From Chloroflexus sp. Y-396-1 (lineage in GTDB: Bacteria; Chloroflexota; Chloroflexia; Chloroflexales; Chloroflexaceae), in NCBI RefSeq assembly GCF_000516515.1, contig NZ_KI911784.1, positions 2,574,881 to 2,638,880 on the forward strand: 64,000 nt of DNA, in the 5' to 3' direction. This document shows positions 16,633-23,946 of this stretch, one piece after another. The notes below the pieces were generated by a model, which was not told the DNA's origin, did no database searches, and worked only from the letters and a program-made list of their open reading frames with translations. Both the position numbers and the translations under genes were made by a program. The stretch's first letter is position 1, and each line of letters opens with the position of its first letter.

Positions 16633-17390
<758 letters not shown>

Positions 17391-17440
17391 ACACTCAATG
17401 ATGCAGTGGACTCATCGTTTGGCTTAGGCACGTATGGCAG

Positions 17441-20400
17441 TTATCTGTTCAGCTCCATCAACCGCCATACCAGCTCGCGCTGGACTGACGGTGCAACCGT
17501 GTAGCGGATCTGGCCGCGCTCGTTGGGGTAAAAATCGTGTTGTGGGTCAAGATCATCCCATCCGTAACACGCCATGATAATGCGGTCGAGCGCAACGTGC
17601 AGTCGCCGTAGTTCAACAATATCGGCGTCGGTGCAGGTCGGGTTGTGGAAGAGGTTGTAGGTTTTGGTCAGGCCTAGTTGTCGGGCCTGCATGATCTGGC
17701 GGCGGTGTTCGTAGTAGGTGGCGCCGATCTGCGCCGCCTGCCAGAAGACCGGCGGCATGTCGGAAAGCTGCCATGCTCCTGCTGCCAGTTGTTCGTATTC
17801 CGCCGGTGGGAAGGGGAAGGTGGCAAAACAGTCGGTTGGTGTGTAGCGAAGGTCGGTACGTAAACTGGAGGCTTGTTTTCGTACCCACACCTCATGCACG
17901 GCAGATTGCAGCAGGGCGAAGTGGTAGTCGTCGTCGTAGGCGAAGACGATGAGCTGTTCGTTATAGATATACCCCTGAGGAACAAACACCATTGCATGCA
18001 ACTCACTGACCCGACTCCTTACTAACACCCGTCGCAGCGGAGCGATGGCCTGGCGCATGCCCTTTGCAAAAGCTGCGTAAAGCCACCATCGCTGTTTGAG
18101 ACGGTCATAACCAGCGACATCTGAGCGCAGTTTTTCACGCTCCGGCTTCACCCGTTCCTCCACCATCCGTAGCAGGTCGGGGTACTGCTGCGCTCGCGCT
18201 AGTTCCCAATCGTGGAAGCAGATCACCCACCGACTCGGTTGTTGCGCCGGATGGCTGTTGAGGTCTTCGCCGTTCAGGTAGGGGAAGAGGCAATCGGCGT
18301 TGCGCGGGTCGCACTCGATCAGGGCGCGGGCTTCAGCCGGTTCGAGCACAAAGCCGATCCCGCGCACGTAGTCGCCAATGAATGCCTTGCCTTCATTCAG
18401 CGGCAGGCGTACCGGTTCGCGTTCAGGCTGATCGTCGAGGCGTGAGGAGATAAAGGGTACCGGCTGGTCATCGAGGATCGCGGCCGTGCGACGGGAATGG
18501 TCACTGCGCAGACGTGGGGCTTCAATCACCACCAGATTGACTTCGACGTTCGCCTGGCCGGGCCATGTGACGAAGCGTTGCGCGAACGGTATCCACCCGC
18601 CCTGGGCCAAGATGACCTTTAGGCCGCTTTCGCGGGTGTCGCCCTGGCCGAGCGTGTTGGTCGCGATCAGACCCAACCGTCCGCCGGGTTTGAGCAGGGT
18701 AAAGGCGCGGCGGAAGAAGGCAGCGCAGAGGTCGGCAATACCGCCGAAGGGATGGTAGGCTGCTTCCAGCCACAGGCGATAGGCTGCGCCGAAGGTGCTA
18801 CTGATGCGCAGCCCGCCCATAAATGGCGGGTTGCCGATAATCACATCGAAGCCACTGGGTGTAGAGCCGCTATCACGCGGCCCGAGGATGTCGGCGAATT
18901 CGAGCGCCCAGTGGAAGAAGGCGTGCCGGTGGCTCAGCTCTGTCACCCGGCTCAGTGTTTGCGGATCGGGCAGCGTATCCCTGCGCAGCACCTCGTACAG
19001 ATCGGCAGTGGTGAACAGTAGCGGAGGGGTGGTTTCCTGCCCAAAGAACGCGGCAGTATAGGTGTCGCAGGCGTCTTTGAGCTGTCGGAAGGCAACGCTC
19101 CGCTGGAGCTGCGCGAAGGCCGTCCGTTTGGCGCGCACCTCGGCAATCGTCGTTTCGGGCATCGCGACAATCTGCTGGATGGCCGTCGCAACCTCGGCCA
19201 GCAGTTGGGTAATGAAGCTGTATTGGAAGAGTGCCGATTGCCGTTCTTTCGCGTTGCGTTTCCGAGTCGTGGTCAGCAACGCACGGTTTGCGTTGCCGAC
19301 CGGTCGGTACGCCGCATCGGGGATACCATCTTTTAAGAGGCTGAGGTCGGCCAGCCCGATCAGCGAGTCGCCGCAGCGGATGTGCTGTTCAAGAAAGGTG
19401 AGCGGTTTATCGCGGGTATGACCTTCGAGCCAAAGCGCCACGCGACACAGCTCAACCGCCAGCGGGTTCTTATCGACGCCGTAGATGCAGTGGGTAATCG
19501 CGTCACGCACACTGTTTTGGATCGCTTCCGGTGGTGGTTCATCGGTGCCGGTGCGTAATCGCGCCAGCTCCTTCCCCAGCCGACGGGCCGCCGCGAGCAG
19601 AAAATGCCCTGAACCGCAGGCCGGGTCGAGAATCTTCAGGGTGAGAATGGCCGCTTCGCGTTCGCGATTGGTACGACAGGCTGCCAACCGCTCGCGCAAG
19701 ACCGGCTCGAGCGTCTGGTGCACGAGCCGTCCGACCAGTTCAGGTGGCGTGTAATGCGACCCGGTGGCGCGCCGTTCGGTCCCGCGCACTGCGAGCGTAA
19801 AGCACATCTGCTCATCGGCGCCGGTCAGGTGTGGGTGCAGTTCGAGCAAACTCTCGTAGACCGAGCCGAGTTCTTCGGTATCGAGCGCCGCGTAGTTAAT
19901 GCGGCGAGGCGGCGAGTCGTAGAAGGTGAGGTACCAGAACGCCCTGAGCAGATCACGGTTGGTAATGCTGGCATGATCGAGTTCCTGTTCCGCGAAGAGA
20001 TCACCGTTCAAGACCGGCAGACCGAGCAGCGTTGCCAGCGGTTGGCCATCGACGTGCGGTGTATCATCGCGCAGCACCATCCAGAGCACGCGCAACGAGC
20101 ACCAGAGATCGTCGTGATCGGTGAAGGCGTCTGGTCGTTCGACGAGCGTGCGGAGGCGGGTGATGCTGTAGTGTTCGCGGTAAAGCGGATCGGCGCTGAT
20201 CAGACCGCGCTCTTCCGAAACGAGCAGAAAGAGCAGGCGGTAGACCAACCGCAAGAGCTGACGGTAGAGTTCGGCTGCACCGTGGTGGGCAACCCATGCG
20301 CGCAGCTCTTGACTATCACGATGTCTGAGAAACCCGTTGGCGAGCTGTTGCAGACAGGCTTCCACCCCTTCGCGTAATTTCTCACGTACCCGGCTGCCCT

Positions 20401-21100
20401 GTTCCAGCGCGTGTTGGTAATAGATTTCCAGCGGGCACGAGCGAGCAGCGCTGGCAGTGCGTGGCAAGCGGGAACGGTGGAGCAGACGGTAGAAGACGGC
20501 GAAATCTTGAAAGTGCTGCTCCTCAATCATCGTTGCCAGATCGAACTCCAGATAGACCTGACGACGAATGTAGGTACTGTCGCGCAGCAGGCGGATGATG
20601 CGGCCATTGGTGACAATGCCCCAGAGATGCTCGGTACGGTTGAGAAACTCTTGCAGCAGGGTGTGCGGTGCGAGGCGAGGTCGTCCACCTGGCGCAAGGT
20701 GATCAAGCTCTTGCCGAACACCAACGATATGCACCGGTACCGCATCATCGTCCTCGCCGAGACGGTGCGAGATTGCGAAACTCATCCCGTCGATGTCGTA
20801 GGCGCGGGCGTTGTAGCGCAACTCATAGCCAAGCATACTCAAGAGCGGGATCATCCAGGCGTCGCGGGTGAGCGAGGTCGCCGAATCCCGTTCGTCGAGG
20901 CGGGCCAGCCGGTTTTGAAAGACACCCCAGAGCGTGCAGGCATCGTGAAACACAGCCGCAATCTCATCGTTCAGATGGCGACGACTGCTGATACCAAAAT
21001 CCTCCGGTTGCTGATACGGCAGTTCGCCCCGCAACAGTTGTTCAGGCAGGTCAGGCCCAAAGAGACCACCTGCAATGCGCAGTGTTGGAAAGGTACTCAT
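17441..21100 (-). CDS. Eco57I-type N6-adenine DNA methyltransferase, DrmMI-like
   Basis: 1219 residues. An N-terminal alpha/beta region of about 450 residues leads to GSHYTPPELVGRLV (448-461), SAM-binding motif I LDPACGSGHF at 491-500 and catalytic motif IV FDVIIGNPPF at 751-760 (NPPF, typical of N6-adenine methylases). A C-terminal TaqI-like target-recognition region follows (LNGEDLNSHP; RYTPTDCFATFPFP). The N-terminus resembles the type IIG/ISP layout, but I see no intact PD-(D/E)xK nuclease motif. The start overlaps the stop of the helicase gene by four bases, so the two are made together. The size and pairing match DrmMI with DrmD of class 1 DISARM. Likely role: host-DNA modification in a defence cassette; an orphan function is possible. 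Confidence 0.85.
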   Translation of the reverse strand: MSTFPTLRIAGGLFGPDLPEQLLRGELPYQQPEDFGISSRRHLNDEIAAVFHDACTLWGVFQNRLARLDERDSATSLTRDAWMIPLLSMLGYELRYNARAYDIDGMSFAISHRLGEDDDAVPVHIVGVRQELDHLAPGGRPRLAPHTLLQEFLNRTEHLWGIVTNGRIIRLLRDSTYIRRQVYLEFDLATMIEEQHFQDFAVFYRLLHRSRLPRTASAARSCPLEIYYQHALEQGSRVREKLREGVEACLQQLANGFLRHRDSQELRAWVAHHGAAELYRQLLRLVYRLLFLLVSEERGLISADPLYREHYSITRLRTLVERPDAFTDHDDLWCSLRVLWMVLRDDTPHVDGQPLATLLGLPVLNGDLFAEQELDHASITNRDLLRAFWYLTFYDSPPRRINYAALDTEELGSVYESLLELHPHLTGADEQMCFTLAVRGTERRATGSHYTPPELVGRLVHQTLEPVLRERLAACRTNREREAAILTLKILDPACGSGHFLLAAARRLGKELARLRTGTDEPPPEAIQNSVRDAITHCIYGVDKNPLAVELCRVALWLEGHTRDKPLTFLEQHIRCGDSLIGLADLSLLKDGIPDAAYRPVGNANRALLTTTRKRNAKERQSALFQYSFITQLLAEVATAIQQIVAMPETTIAEVRAKRTAFAQLQRSVAFRQLKDACDTYTAAFFGQETTPPLLFTTADLYEVLRRDTLPDPQTLSRVTELSHRHAFFHWALEFADILGPRDSGSTPSGFDVIIGNPPFMGGLRISSTFGAAYRLWLEAAYHPFGGIADLCAAFFRRAFTLLKPGGRLGLIATNTLGQGDTRESGLKVILAQGGWIPFAQRFVTWPGQANVEVNLVVIEAPRLRSDHSRRTAAILDDQPVPFISSRLDDQPEREPVRLPLNEGKAFIGDYVRGIGFVLEPAEARALIECDPRNADCLFPYLNGEDLNSHPAQQPSRWVICFHDWELARAQQYPDLLRMVEERVKPEREKLRSDVAGYDRLKQRWWLYAAFAKGMRQAIAPLRRVLVRSRVSELHAMVFVPQGYIYNEQLIVFAYDDDYHFALLQSAVHEVWVRKQASSLRTDLRYTPTDCFATFPFPPAEYEQLAAGAWQLSDMPPVFWQAAQIGATYYEHRRQIMQARQLGLTKTYNLFHNPTCTDADIVELRRLHVALDRIIMACYGWDDLDPQHDFYPNERGQIRYTVAPSVQRELVWRLMELNR

Positions 21101-23946
21101 TGTGGTGTAACCATCGGTTGCAAGACAAGAATGCCGAGCAGATCAGGCGGAAGCTGAGGCTTGAGCGCCAGTTCGCGCACCCGTAGTGCTACTGCCTGCC
21201 GAATGCGCTTGTGGCTCTGTTCGAGCGTGCCAGCTCGTATGTTCAGAAAGGCAGCGATCTGTTCTTGCGCAGTTGACCATTGGGTGATGGCATCATCGAT
21301 CAGTTCGCGCTTTTCCGCCAACGGTACATTCGCATCAGGTTGTGCATCGAGCAAGGCCAATGCTTGATCGGGATCAAGCCACTCACCGGTTGGCTGTTGG
21401 CCGACAACCACCACCTCTTCGGCCAGCAGCGGATGCTGACCCGGTTGTTCCAGCAAGTAGCGTACCCGCAGTAGCCAGAGCGTTGTTAGTCGTGACACTG
21501 CGCGGGTACGGATCACACCACAACGGGCAGCGATGGCCGATTGGGGATTGGCGAGCGCATCTTCAAACAAGAAGCGGGCCAGAGTTGTGACAAAGCGATG
21601 GTTACGACCGAGGTATTCAGCTTCAGGAGGTACCGGTGAAACAAAGCTTATTCGCCATAGCGAAGAACGGTGCGGAGTGGATAGGGATGGTGTCAGCCCT
21701 GCCCGGATCGGCGCCGGCAAGCGGTTCAACGTCGCCTCCGACACATCAACCAGAAAGACATCGGCCCGGCGGCGATCAGGCTGAATAGGCAACCCCAACC
21801 GTTGTGCCGCTGTCAACACAAACTCGCGCACTGCCGTGGGATCACCGAGCACGGCATCGGTTGCCTCTAGCTCCCGGCGCACCTCATCTGGCTTCAGTGC
21901 TCGCTGCGCAAACCGAGTACGGTTAACCCGTTCACGCTCAGCATCTTGTTGCCAGCGTCGGTGCAGCACCTCAACCGCCGGTACGCCGAGATCGAGTTCC
22001 AGTTGTTGCCCTGCGCGACCACGCCGCAAAAAGAGCGCATTGAGCACCGCTTCGGTGACACTGGCGCTATCTTCAGGAACCGGCACATACGTTCCCAGTG
22101 CGCGATGAATCTCACGGGCTTTGTTCAGCAGCACATCGATCACCACGCCGTCTACCGGATTATCCCGCCCGTAGAGGCGGATCACCCGCACGGTTGATGC
22201 CAACTGGCCGTAGCGGTCAACCCGCCCCTCACGCTGTTCGAGCCGGTTTGGATTCCAGGGCAAATCGTAGTGTACCACCGCGTTAAAACGGTCTTGCAAA
22301 TTAATCCCCTCGCTCAGGCAATCGGTGGCAACCAACACCCGTGGCTGATCGGTCGTGAGCGATTCGATCATCATCCGCCGTTCATCATCTGCCATCCGCC
22401 CGGTCACACACACCACCTGTACTGTTTCCGGCAGCGTCTGCCGTAGATGGTCGGCCAGGTATTCAGCAGTGGCGATATAGCGGCACCACAGAATGGGGCA
22501 AAAACCCTCGCCGAGCAACTGCTGCACCACCTCGCGGCAGCGTTGCAGCTTGGTATCGGCGGTTGGCCCGGCCAGTGCTCTGGCAAGACGAATCAGCTCG
22601 TGCAATCGTCGCCGCTCGTGATCGTTCAGCGTTTGCGCACTTGCTTCAACCGGCGGTAACGGCGCCTCATCGTTGGTGCGATTGTCATCAGCTTCAAAAA
22701 TAAACGGCTGAAAATCGCTCTCTTCATCGGTAACCGCCAGAGTGTCAATGCGGGCTTCTAACGCAGCCCGAGCAGCGGCCGGACTCGACATCACACAGCG
22801 CAACAGGGCCAGCGCCCCCCAATACCGCACCCGCCGCTGACGCTCGTGCAAATGGTCGCCGGTGTGCACGATTTCAGAGCAGAAGGCGTAGATACGTTCA
22901 AACAAGTGACGGTACTCGGGTGAAAGATCATACGTCACGTCAATCGCTTCTCGGCTGGGGAAACAGCGCACCTCTTCCCAGTGCAGCTCAATATCTTTGC
23001 GCGTCCGCTGAACGAAATGGCGGGCCAGCGTTATCCGTTGGCTCTCTTGCAGATCGGCAATCTGCCAGTCAGCAAACTCCGGTCGCAGCAGCCCCAGCAG
23101 CGAACGAAACGCCATCTCAATCCCACTGTGGGGAGTGGCGGTCAGGAGAATGAGATGGCGTTGCGCATCGGCAGCCAGCTCCTGAAGCAAACGATGGCGT
23201 TGCTGCTGACTCTGAAAACGTTCATCGGCTGCCGCTGCACTGTGTACTTCATCAACGATCACCAGCTCAGGGCAATGCAAGAGAAACTGATGACGGTTCC
23301 GATCCGTCTTCACAAAATCAATACTCACCACCTGAATAGGGTAATGAGCATAGACACTCTTACCCGGGGGAACCTGACGCTCCAACTGCGTGATCGTTCC
23401 CGAACGGATAATCACTGCGTCGAGATGAAACTTCGTTGCCAGTTCGTGCTGCCACTGTTCGCAGAGGTACGGCGGGCAAAGCACACATAACCGACGAATC
23501 TCCTGACGGTCGAACAGCTCACGGGCAATGAGCAGCGCCTCAATCGTCTTGCCGACCCCTACATCATCGGCGATCAACAACCGTACCGGATGCAGACGCA
23601 GCGCCATCAGGAGCGGAACAAACTGATAGGTACGAGGCCGGATCGAAATCCGCCCCAGCGAGCGAAATGGCGCTGCGCCTTCACGGAGGGTCAGGCGGGC
23701 GGCCTGCCAGAGCAGCCGGATCGCTGCCGCATCTGCAACCTGATCGACGGTGGGCAGTGGAAACGTCGCCGGTTGCAGACGCTCCTCGGGCAACGTATAG
23801 CCAACCAGGTCGGCCAGCCGACGATGAATGGCCACCACCTGATCGCTCGCCCCGGCCAGAGGCCGCAGCAACACGACATCGGGCTGATCTGATGGCAACA
23901 ACACCCAATCACGTTTCCGACAACGCACAATCGAGCCGGGTTGCAT
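21097..23946 (-). CDS. SNF2-family DEAD/DEAH-type helicase, DrmD-like
   Basis: 949 residues. Walker A is DDVGVGKT at 127-134, motif II is DEVH at 232-235 (VIVDEVHSA) and motif III is LLTATPHSG. The second RecA domain has VLVATDCLSEGINLQ and LEQREGRVDRYGQ (motifs V and VI). A C-terminal region of about 350 residues is predicted to be largely helical. There is no nuclease motif that I can see. It is the first gene of a two-gene operon with the adenine methylase and is divergent from the riboflavin operon. Homologues pair with large adenine methylases in class 1 DISARM phage-defence loci. Assignment to the SNF2 superfamily is firm; the defence role is inferred. Confidence 0.87.
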   Translation of the reverse strand: MQPGSIVRCRKRDWVLLPSDQPDVVLLRPLAGASDQVVAIHRRLADLVGYTLPEERLQPATFPLPTVDQVADAAAIRLLWQAARLTLREGAAPFRSLGRISIRPRTYQFVPLLMALRLHPVRLLIADDVGVGKTIEALLIARELFDRQEIRRLCVLCPPYLCEQWQHELATKFHLDAVIIRSGTITQLERQVPPGKSVYAHYPIQVVSIDFVKTDRNRHQFLLHCPELVIVDEVHSAAAADERFQSQQQRHRLLQELAADAQRHLILLTATPHSGIEMAFRSLLGLLRPEFADWQIADLQESQRITLARHFVQRTRKDIELHWEEVRCFPSREAIDVTYDLSPEYRHLFERIYAFCSEIVHTGDHLHERQRRVRYWGALALLRCVMSSPAAARAALEARIDTLAVTDEESDFQPFIFEADDNRTNDEAPLPPVEASAQTLNDHERRRLHELIRLARALAGPTADTKLQRCREVVQQLLGEGFCPILWCRYIATAEYLADHLRQTLPETVQVVCVTGRMADDERRMMIESLTTDQPRVLVATDCLSEGINLQDRFNAVVHYDLPWNPNRLEQREGRVDRYGQLASTVRVIRLYGRDNPVDGVVIDVLLNKAREIHRALGTYVPVPEDSASVTEAVLNALFLRRGRAGQQLELDLGVPAVEVLHRRWQQDAERERVNRTRFAQRALKPDEVRRELEATDAVLGDPTAVREFVLTAAQRLGLPIQPDRRRADVFLVDVSEATLNRLPAPIRAGLTPSLSTPHRSSLWRISFVSPVPPEAEYLGRNHRFVTTLARFLFEDALANPQSAIAARCGVIRTRAVSRLTTLWLLRVRYLLEQPGQHPLLAEEVVVVGQQPTGEWLDPDQALALLDAQPDANVPLAEKRELIDDAITQWSTAQEQIAAFLNIRAGTLEQSHKRIRQAVALRVRELALKPQLPPDLLGILVLQPMVTPQ

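Follow-up and report, generated by a model that had tools for sequence, protein, structure and literature searches.

ARMADA Type I systems, in the definition given by a 2025 preprint of Bell et al. (PMC12458937), begin with a gene for a YprA-like protein, ArmC, followed by genes for a BrxHII/RapA-like helicase (ArmA) and a PglX-like methylase (ArmB), an order that is reversed in many archaea and cyanobacteria. For the Type II system of E. coli, the same preprint reports non-abortive action that needs all four genes and is abolished by ATPase mutations of ArmA or ArmC and by mutation of the ArmB NPPW motif; protection needing every component is reported there for E. coli Type II only. Here we analyze a 64,000-nucleotide stretch of the Chloroflexus sp. 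Y-396-1 genome (hereafter the window; contig NZ_KI911784.1, positions 2,574,881 to 2,638,880), which carries a two-gene helicase-methylase operon that is very probably the armA-armB part of an ARMADA Type I system, a relative of DISARM and Druantia. No armC was found within the window, and the single full-length armC homologue of the genome lies 1.74 Mb away on the same chromosome. With a probability of roughly two in three, we favor the reading that this armA-armB module has been separated from armC and that the remote ArmC cuts in trans.

The armA-armB pair and its family assignment

Both genes are on the minus strand: armA, encoding an SNF2/RapA (BrxHII-like) helicase of 949 residues, occupies positions 21097-23946 of the window, and armB, encoding a PglX/DrmMI-like N6-adenine methyltransferase of 1219 residues, positions 17441-21100, its start overlapping the armA stop by 4 bp. 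An earlier reading made from the letters of the window alone (the sequence-only reading) had proposed a tightly coupled operon of an SNF2-type helicase and an Eco57I-type methylase, which is borne out by the exact open reading frames (ORFs), their overlap and the Pfam domains of ArmA (SNF2-rel_dom and Helicase_C) and ArmB (Eco57I, N6_Mtase, and MmeI_TRD). The motifs that it had cited are likewise all in place, namely the ArmA Walker A (residues 127-134, 23545-23568) and DEVH Walker B (residues 232-235, 23242-23253), both kept in an alignment of 14 relatives, and the ArmB S-adenosylmethionine-binding motif I, LDPACGSGHF (residues 491-500, 19601-19630), and catalytic NPPF (residues 757-760, 18821-18832). 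An MmeI-type target recognition domain (TRD; PF20466) covers ArmB residues 916-1099 (17804-18355). Since full-length homologues in the same order occur in many phyla and the ratios of nonsynonymous to synonymous substitution rates (dN/dS) against the homologues of genome G011 are 0.14 and 0.25 for the two genes, armA-armB is not a chance pair of reading frames. The catalytic positions of ArmA (K133/D232) agree with those of the E. coli Type II protein (K136/D236; PMC12458937).

The sequence-only reading had seen in the pair a stripped class 1 DISARM-like system, and on this point kinship stood but family did not. ArmA matches best, over its full length, the PADLOC model PDLC02853 ("DpdE"; 633 bits), with DrmD second (299 bits), and its score of 337.7 bits on the NCBIfam DrmD model NF038317 does not reach the cut-off of 610. 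For comparison, an annotated DrmD whose locus has the full DISARM set (drmD, methylase, drmA, DUF1998 protein, and drmC) scored 1245 bits on the PADLOC DrmD model and 177 bits on PDLC02853. The helicase of the Deinococcus radiodurans R1 pMP1 operon (L176, 4863-16359; DEAD helicase of 1706 residues, helicase, and methylase) scored 265 and 769 bits, respectively; the window ArmA sides with the latter and not with the true DrmD. FastTree analysis of 95 helicases, with DrmD as the outgroup, places it inside a 92-row armA clade, where it groups with helicases from Bacteroidota, Planctomycetota, Verrucomicrobiota, Armatimonadota, and others whose loci have the arrangement armA-armB-cargo-armC. PDLC02853, despite its name, appears to describe the ARMADA helicase family, which could lead older tools to label armA as DpdE or DISARM-like. 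A Dpd system was rejected, as this model equally holds helicases of armC-armA-armB operons and the NCBIfam DpdE model gave only 199 bits against a cut-off of 500. The D. radiodurans operon, which fits ARMADA Type I and belongs to a laboratory strain, lies near McrBC genes, and its methylase is annotated as two genes.

The absence of the DISARM core genes, already noted around the pair by the sequence-only reading, extends to the whole genome: the drmB model NF038324 had no match while detecting its positive controls, the Rhodococcus ruber DrmA query matched the armC gene only (22.9 bits), and the drmC query, run without a positive control, matched nothing. Together with the profile scores, this rules out class 1 DISARM. 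The DISARM call is explained by ArmB, the C-terminal two thirds of which are 35% identical to DrmMI over 819 columns. Of the profile comparisons that had been proposed, that of the methylase favored DrmMI (782 bits, versus 351 bits for its C-terminal half on type IIG models). The C-terminal half of ArmB, with its MmeI TRD, is unlike most ARMADA ArmBs fetched. This TRD and the type IIG matches could suggest an ordinary type IIG/ISP restriction-modification enzyme beside a helicase; we consider this extremely improbable given the higher DrmMI score, the armA-like helicases that adjoin most full-length relatives, and an N-terminal domain devoid of canonical nuclease residues.

That domain was modeled with AlphaFold2 (439 residues, predicted local distance difference test (pLDDT) 92), and VIA-align matched its residues ~45-235 (20396-20968) to the endonuclease domains of DrdV, an HsdR fragment (3h1t; Z 8.3, root-mean-square deviation (rmsd) 5.1, 124 residues), and BpuSI (Z 7.4, rmsd 4.2, 144 residues). 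These Z values are moderate, but most of the highest-ranking matches are endonuclease folds. The canonical PD-(D/E)xK residues were not found, 0 of 55 homologues having an acidic residue or lysine at the expected strand positions, which hold instead conserved Ser-His (111-112) and Pro-x-His (122-124); strands were assigned by topology and not from a superposed structure. We read the predicted domain as an inactivated nuclease fold serving DNA or protein contact. The sequence-only reading had offered, as one of two alternatives, a minimal stand-alone defense unit with its effector hidden in one of the proteins. In such a unit, this domain would be the effector and the helicase would move it, after the manner of type ISP/IIG enzymes. 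The predicted fold agrees with a hidden nuclease, but the missing catalytic residues do not, armB genes of operons that include armC retain this domain too, and the E. coli Type II system needs all four of its genes according to the main text of PMC12458937; such a self-sufficient unit is very improbable. The other alternative of the sequence-only reading, that the pair relies on core genes elsewhere, is the better one, although the missing core component that exists elsewhere in the genome is armC and not drmABC.

The remote armC and its association with armA

A search with the armC of genome G005 found the homologue at positions 849908-855004 of the source genome (G000:C1), a complete chromosome of 4.89 Mb that contains the window. 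Its product of 1699 residues has DEAD, Helicase_C, and MZB/DUF1998 domains, matches DruE by PADLOC (348 bits), and has its catalytic positions K115/D231 in agreement with K110/D234 of the E. coli Type II ArmC (PMC12458937). The last 120 residues retain the pattern S-E-L-E ... D-F ... D-G-x-x-H-D common to its relatives, and DUF559 matches 17 of 18 homologous ArmC C-termini at E values up to 1 (best 5e-8). For the C-terminal domain of one homologue, an AlphaFold2 model (pLDDT 85) is closest to I-Bth0305I (Z 9.3, rmsd 2.8, 89 residues) and also resembles Vsr (1cw0; Z 8.1, rmsd 2.6, 92 residues). The genome holds the expected parts of ARMADA Type I: a BrxHII/RapA-like helicase closer to ARMADA than to DrmD or DpdE by profiles and tree, an adjoining PglX-like adenine methylase, and a YprA-like ArmC with DEAD and DUF1998/MZB domains whose Vsr-type PD-(D/E)xK nuclease is indicated by the homologue model and the kept D...DG..H pattern. 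ArmC is not encoded in the same operon or locus, and the armAB locus is a split variant, not a canonical ARMADA Type I locus. In one armC clade (C-termini of L028, L029, and L034; L080:11386-11901), the Vsr-type nuclease residues look lost, and the ARMADA systems of this clade look as if they lacked an active nuclease there. The C-terminal domain of the G030 ArmC also has a degenerate-looking sequence.

Genomes with armA nearly always have armC. Among the 41 nearest genomes, armA is present in 13 and armC in 16, with armC in all 13 armA carriers, and in a survey of 399 Chloroflexota genomes of at least 90% completeness, armA was found in 60, armC in 65, and both in 56 (56 of 60 armA carriers); the figures outside the family of the window are 48, 49, and 44, respectively. 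The two genes are usually close together: at 65 armA places in armC genomes, armC lies within 15 kb in 48 but not in the other 17, many of which may reflect contig breaks. Among the 22 assemblies with at most 10 contigs, G000, G003, G030, and G382 have armA and armC at a great distance from each other or on separate contigs; in G168 they are 27 kb apart. The neighborhood survey of relatives, also proposed at the outset, showed armA-armB with armC in related loci, the window-type pair being followed by armC in the sampled loci from other phyla that had enough flank (L094, L095, L097, L099, L101, L117, and L132).

The cargo slot between armB and armC is variable, with different genes in these loci and in L105, among them, by eye, Fic-like, ATPase, and RmuC-like genes and others. 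DUF3644, identified by Pfam in L024:8383-9300, was rejected as a conserved third gene since it occurs only in G011 among the loci fetched. The loci L082, L087, L089, L090, and L083 include armB genes with no adjoining armA (G036, G004, G008, and G030) and an armC in a genome, G001, with no armA or armB detected. Such a distribution suggests that ARMADA parts are scattered across Chloroflexales-like genomes.

History of the split and competing explanations

The source genome's armC lies between holB and an ABC-ATPase gene. Its holB-side flank is common to G000, G003, and G005, where it adjoins armC in the first two and a complete armC-armA-armB operon in G005, a close relative. G000 and its sister species G003 also have a second armAB pair, unlinked from armC, beside the same OYE-family gene (91.6% identical); because both share this pair at the same place, the separation of armAB from armC probably predates the split of the two species. 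Most simply, armAB would have moved away from an operon that was complete at holB, a direction that we infer. Since then, the armC reading frame has stayed intact in the two split genomes (72% identity, dN 0.21, dS saturated), a conservation pointing to purifying selection on armC while split. Of all the observations, this retention after separation argues most strongly for an ability of armAB and armC to work in trans.

The window pair is an additional armAB module of another lineage, without an armC of its own. The window armA joins the armA-armB-cargo-armC lineage (support 82), whereas the resident armC groups with those of G003 and G005. The same combination is seen in G030, where window-type and resident armAB pairs coexist with a single armC, of the resident type. 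A clean empty site for the window insertion could not be demonstrated: synteny with G003 covers ribD and the genes downstream of it but does not extend to the opposite flank. The genes around the pair are ordinary, with riboflavin genes to one side and, to the other, those for a PAS/STAS protein, an ABC ATPase, and a class-V aminotransferase; Pfam analysis of these genes revealed nothing defense-like directly adjoining the pair.

The resident armB of the source genome (L004:1543-6397; G000:C1:1330043-1334897) is split into two frames, with ORFs of 935 and 768 residues, by an insertion between motif I and NPPW that contains GGEGG-type repeats and a DUF559 reading frame, part of the region being masked. 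Similar repeats are seen at other places in this gene. With the resident armB so interrupted, the genome may have no intact armAB other than that of the window; since the D. radiodurans armB likewise carries a two-gene annotation, however, a split methylase is no proof of death. Just 3' of the window armB, an array of 166-bp direct repeats with no strand assigned (16634-17431) occupies the place where related operons have a cargo gene and armC. The copies are head-to-tail and 96-97% alike (83% for the last stretch), generate a ladder of overlapping 94-residue ORFs and, being tandem copies without spacers, are not a CRISPR array. Repeats in the expected place of armC, no cognate armC in the genome, and a second armB already disrupted could all be signs that the window pair is a decaying remnant that lost its own armC. 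We find this very unlikely, for both ORFs are full length with all their motifs and the arrangement recurs in other genera.

Several observations weigh against a module served in trans by the remote ArmC. The armCs linked to the lineage of the window armA belong to a different subclade from the resident armC, so that the two are not a cognate pair, and the second armAB pair present in G000, G030, G011, and G299 could by itself explain why armC is retained. The Vsr-type fold is predicted for an ArmC homologue and not for the ArmC of this genome, whose own nuclease domain reaches 18.8 bits on DUF559 (E=0.0016), below the cut-off of 20.6. Finally, the armA-armC association across the 399 Chloroflexota genomes (Fisher odds ratio 513, P about 1e-53) is uncorrected for phylogeny.

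An alternative is an orphan modification module, in which ArmAB would mark host DNA, either for self-protection from ArmC or another ARMADA system or for gene regulation, without triggering restriction. Window-type armAB pairs without a local armC in G000, G030, G011, G299, G310, G382, and G343 (some of them possible contig breaks) and armB genes without an adjoining armA (e.g., G004:C148, G030:C1:2335164, and G036:C79) are consistent with it. Nevertheless, a helicase would be needless for a pure methylation mark, and here it is kept intact with the methylase under dN/dS values of 0.14-0.25, which makes this explanation unlikely.

Possible mode of action and comparison with known systems

Given the co-occurrence of armA and armC, the conserved split organization, and the reported dependence of the E. 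coli Type II system on every one of its genes, we propose that ArmC acts in trans: the window pair most likely supplies methylation and specificity, and the remote ArmC cuts. ArmB would methylate adenines at a motif set by its C-terminal recognition domain, marking host DNA, ArmA, an SNF2/RapA-like translocase, would together with ArmB sense or move along unmodified incoming DNA, and the YprA/DruE-like ArmC would unwind this DNA and cut it by its putative C-terminal Vsr-type nuclease. Should armAB modules indeed cooperate in trans with an ArmC that is both distant and non-cognate, specificity could be uncoupled from the effector in ARMADA, two plasmids would offer a simple way to dissect the system, and helicase-methylase pairs that look like "orphans" in other places would be predicted to be live.

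One HsdR can serve several specificity subunits. ARMADA might similarly be a distributed system in which one resident ArmC serves several separately located, horizontally acquired armAB modules with different recognition domains, and a host would gain new target specificities by acquiring armAB modules alone; we put this wider idea forward tentatively, as it seems on balance doubtful. Defense-system finders seek co-located genes and, as a result, a split ARMADA is called DISARM-like or incomplete. The main text of PMC12458937 contains no description that we could find of an armAB/armC split, and no paper on a Chloroflexus methylome was among the top literature matches.

Compared with known systems, the locus shares with the type IIG/IIL enzymes MmeI, DrdV, and BpuSI an endonuclease-like N-terminal domain, an adenine methylase core, and an MmeI-type TRD, all in ArmB, but differs from them by the lack of canonical catalytic residues in the nuclease-like domain and by its helicase neighbor. 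The DruE-like ArmC recalls Druantia; in contrast, Druantia in the description of PMC12458937 includes no ArmA/ArmB pair, and ArmC ends in a Vsr-type domain. Class 1 DISARM, as in the R. ruber plasmid locus L173, has the same order of SNF2 helicase and adenine methylase as well as the related DrmMI, whereas here drmA, drmB, and drmC are missing from both locus and genome searches and the helicase is far closer to ArmA than to DrmD. As in ARMADA Type I, the genome encodes a YprA-like ArmC with DUF1998 and a Vsr-type nuclease; unlike in that system, armC lies at a distance, belongs to another ARMADA sub-lineage, and coexists with a second armAB pair.
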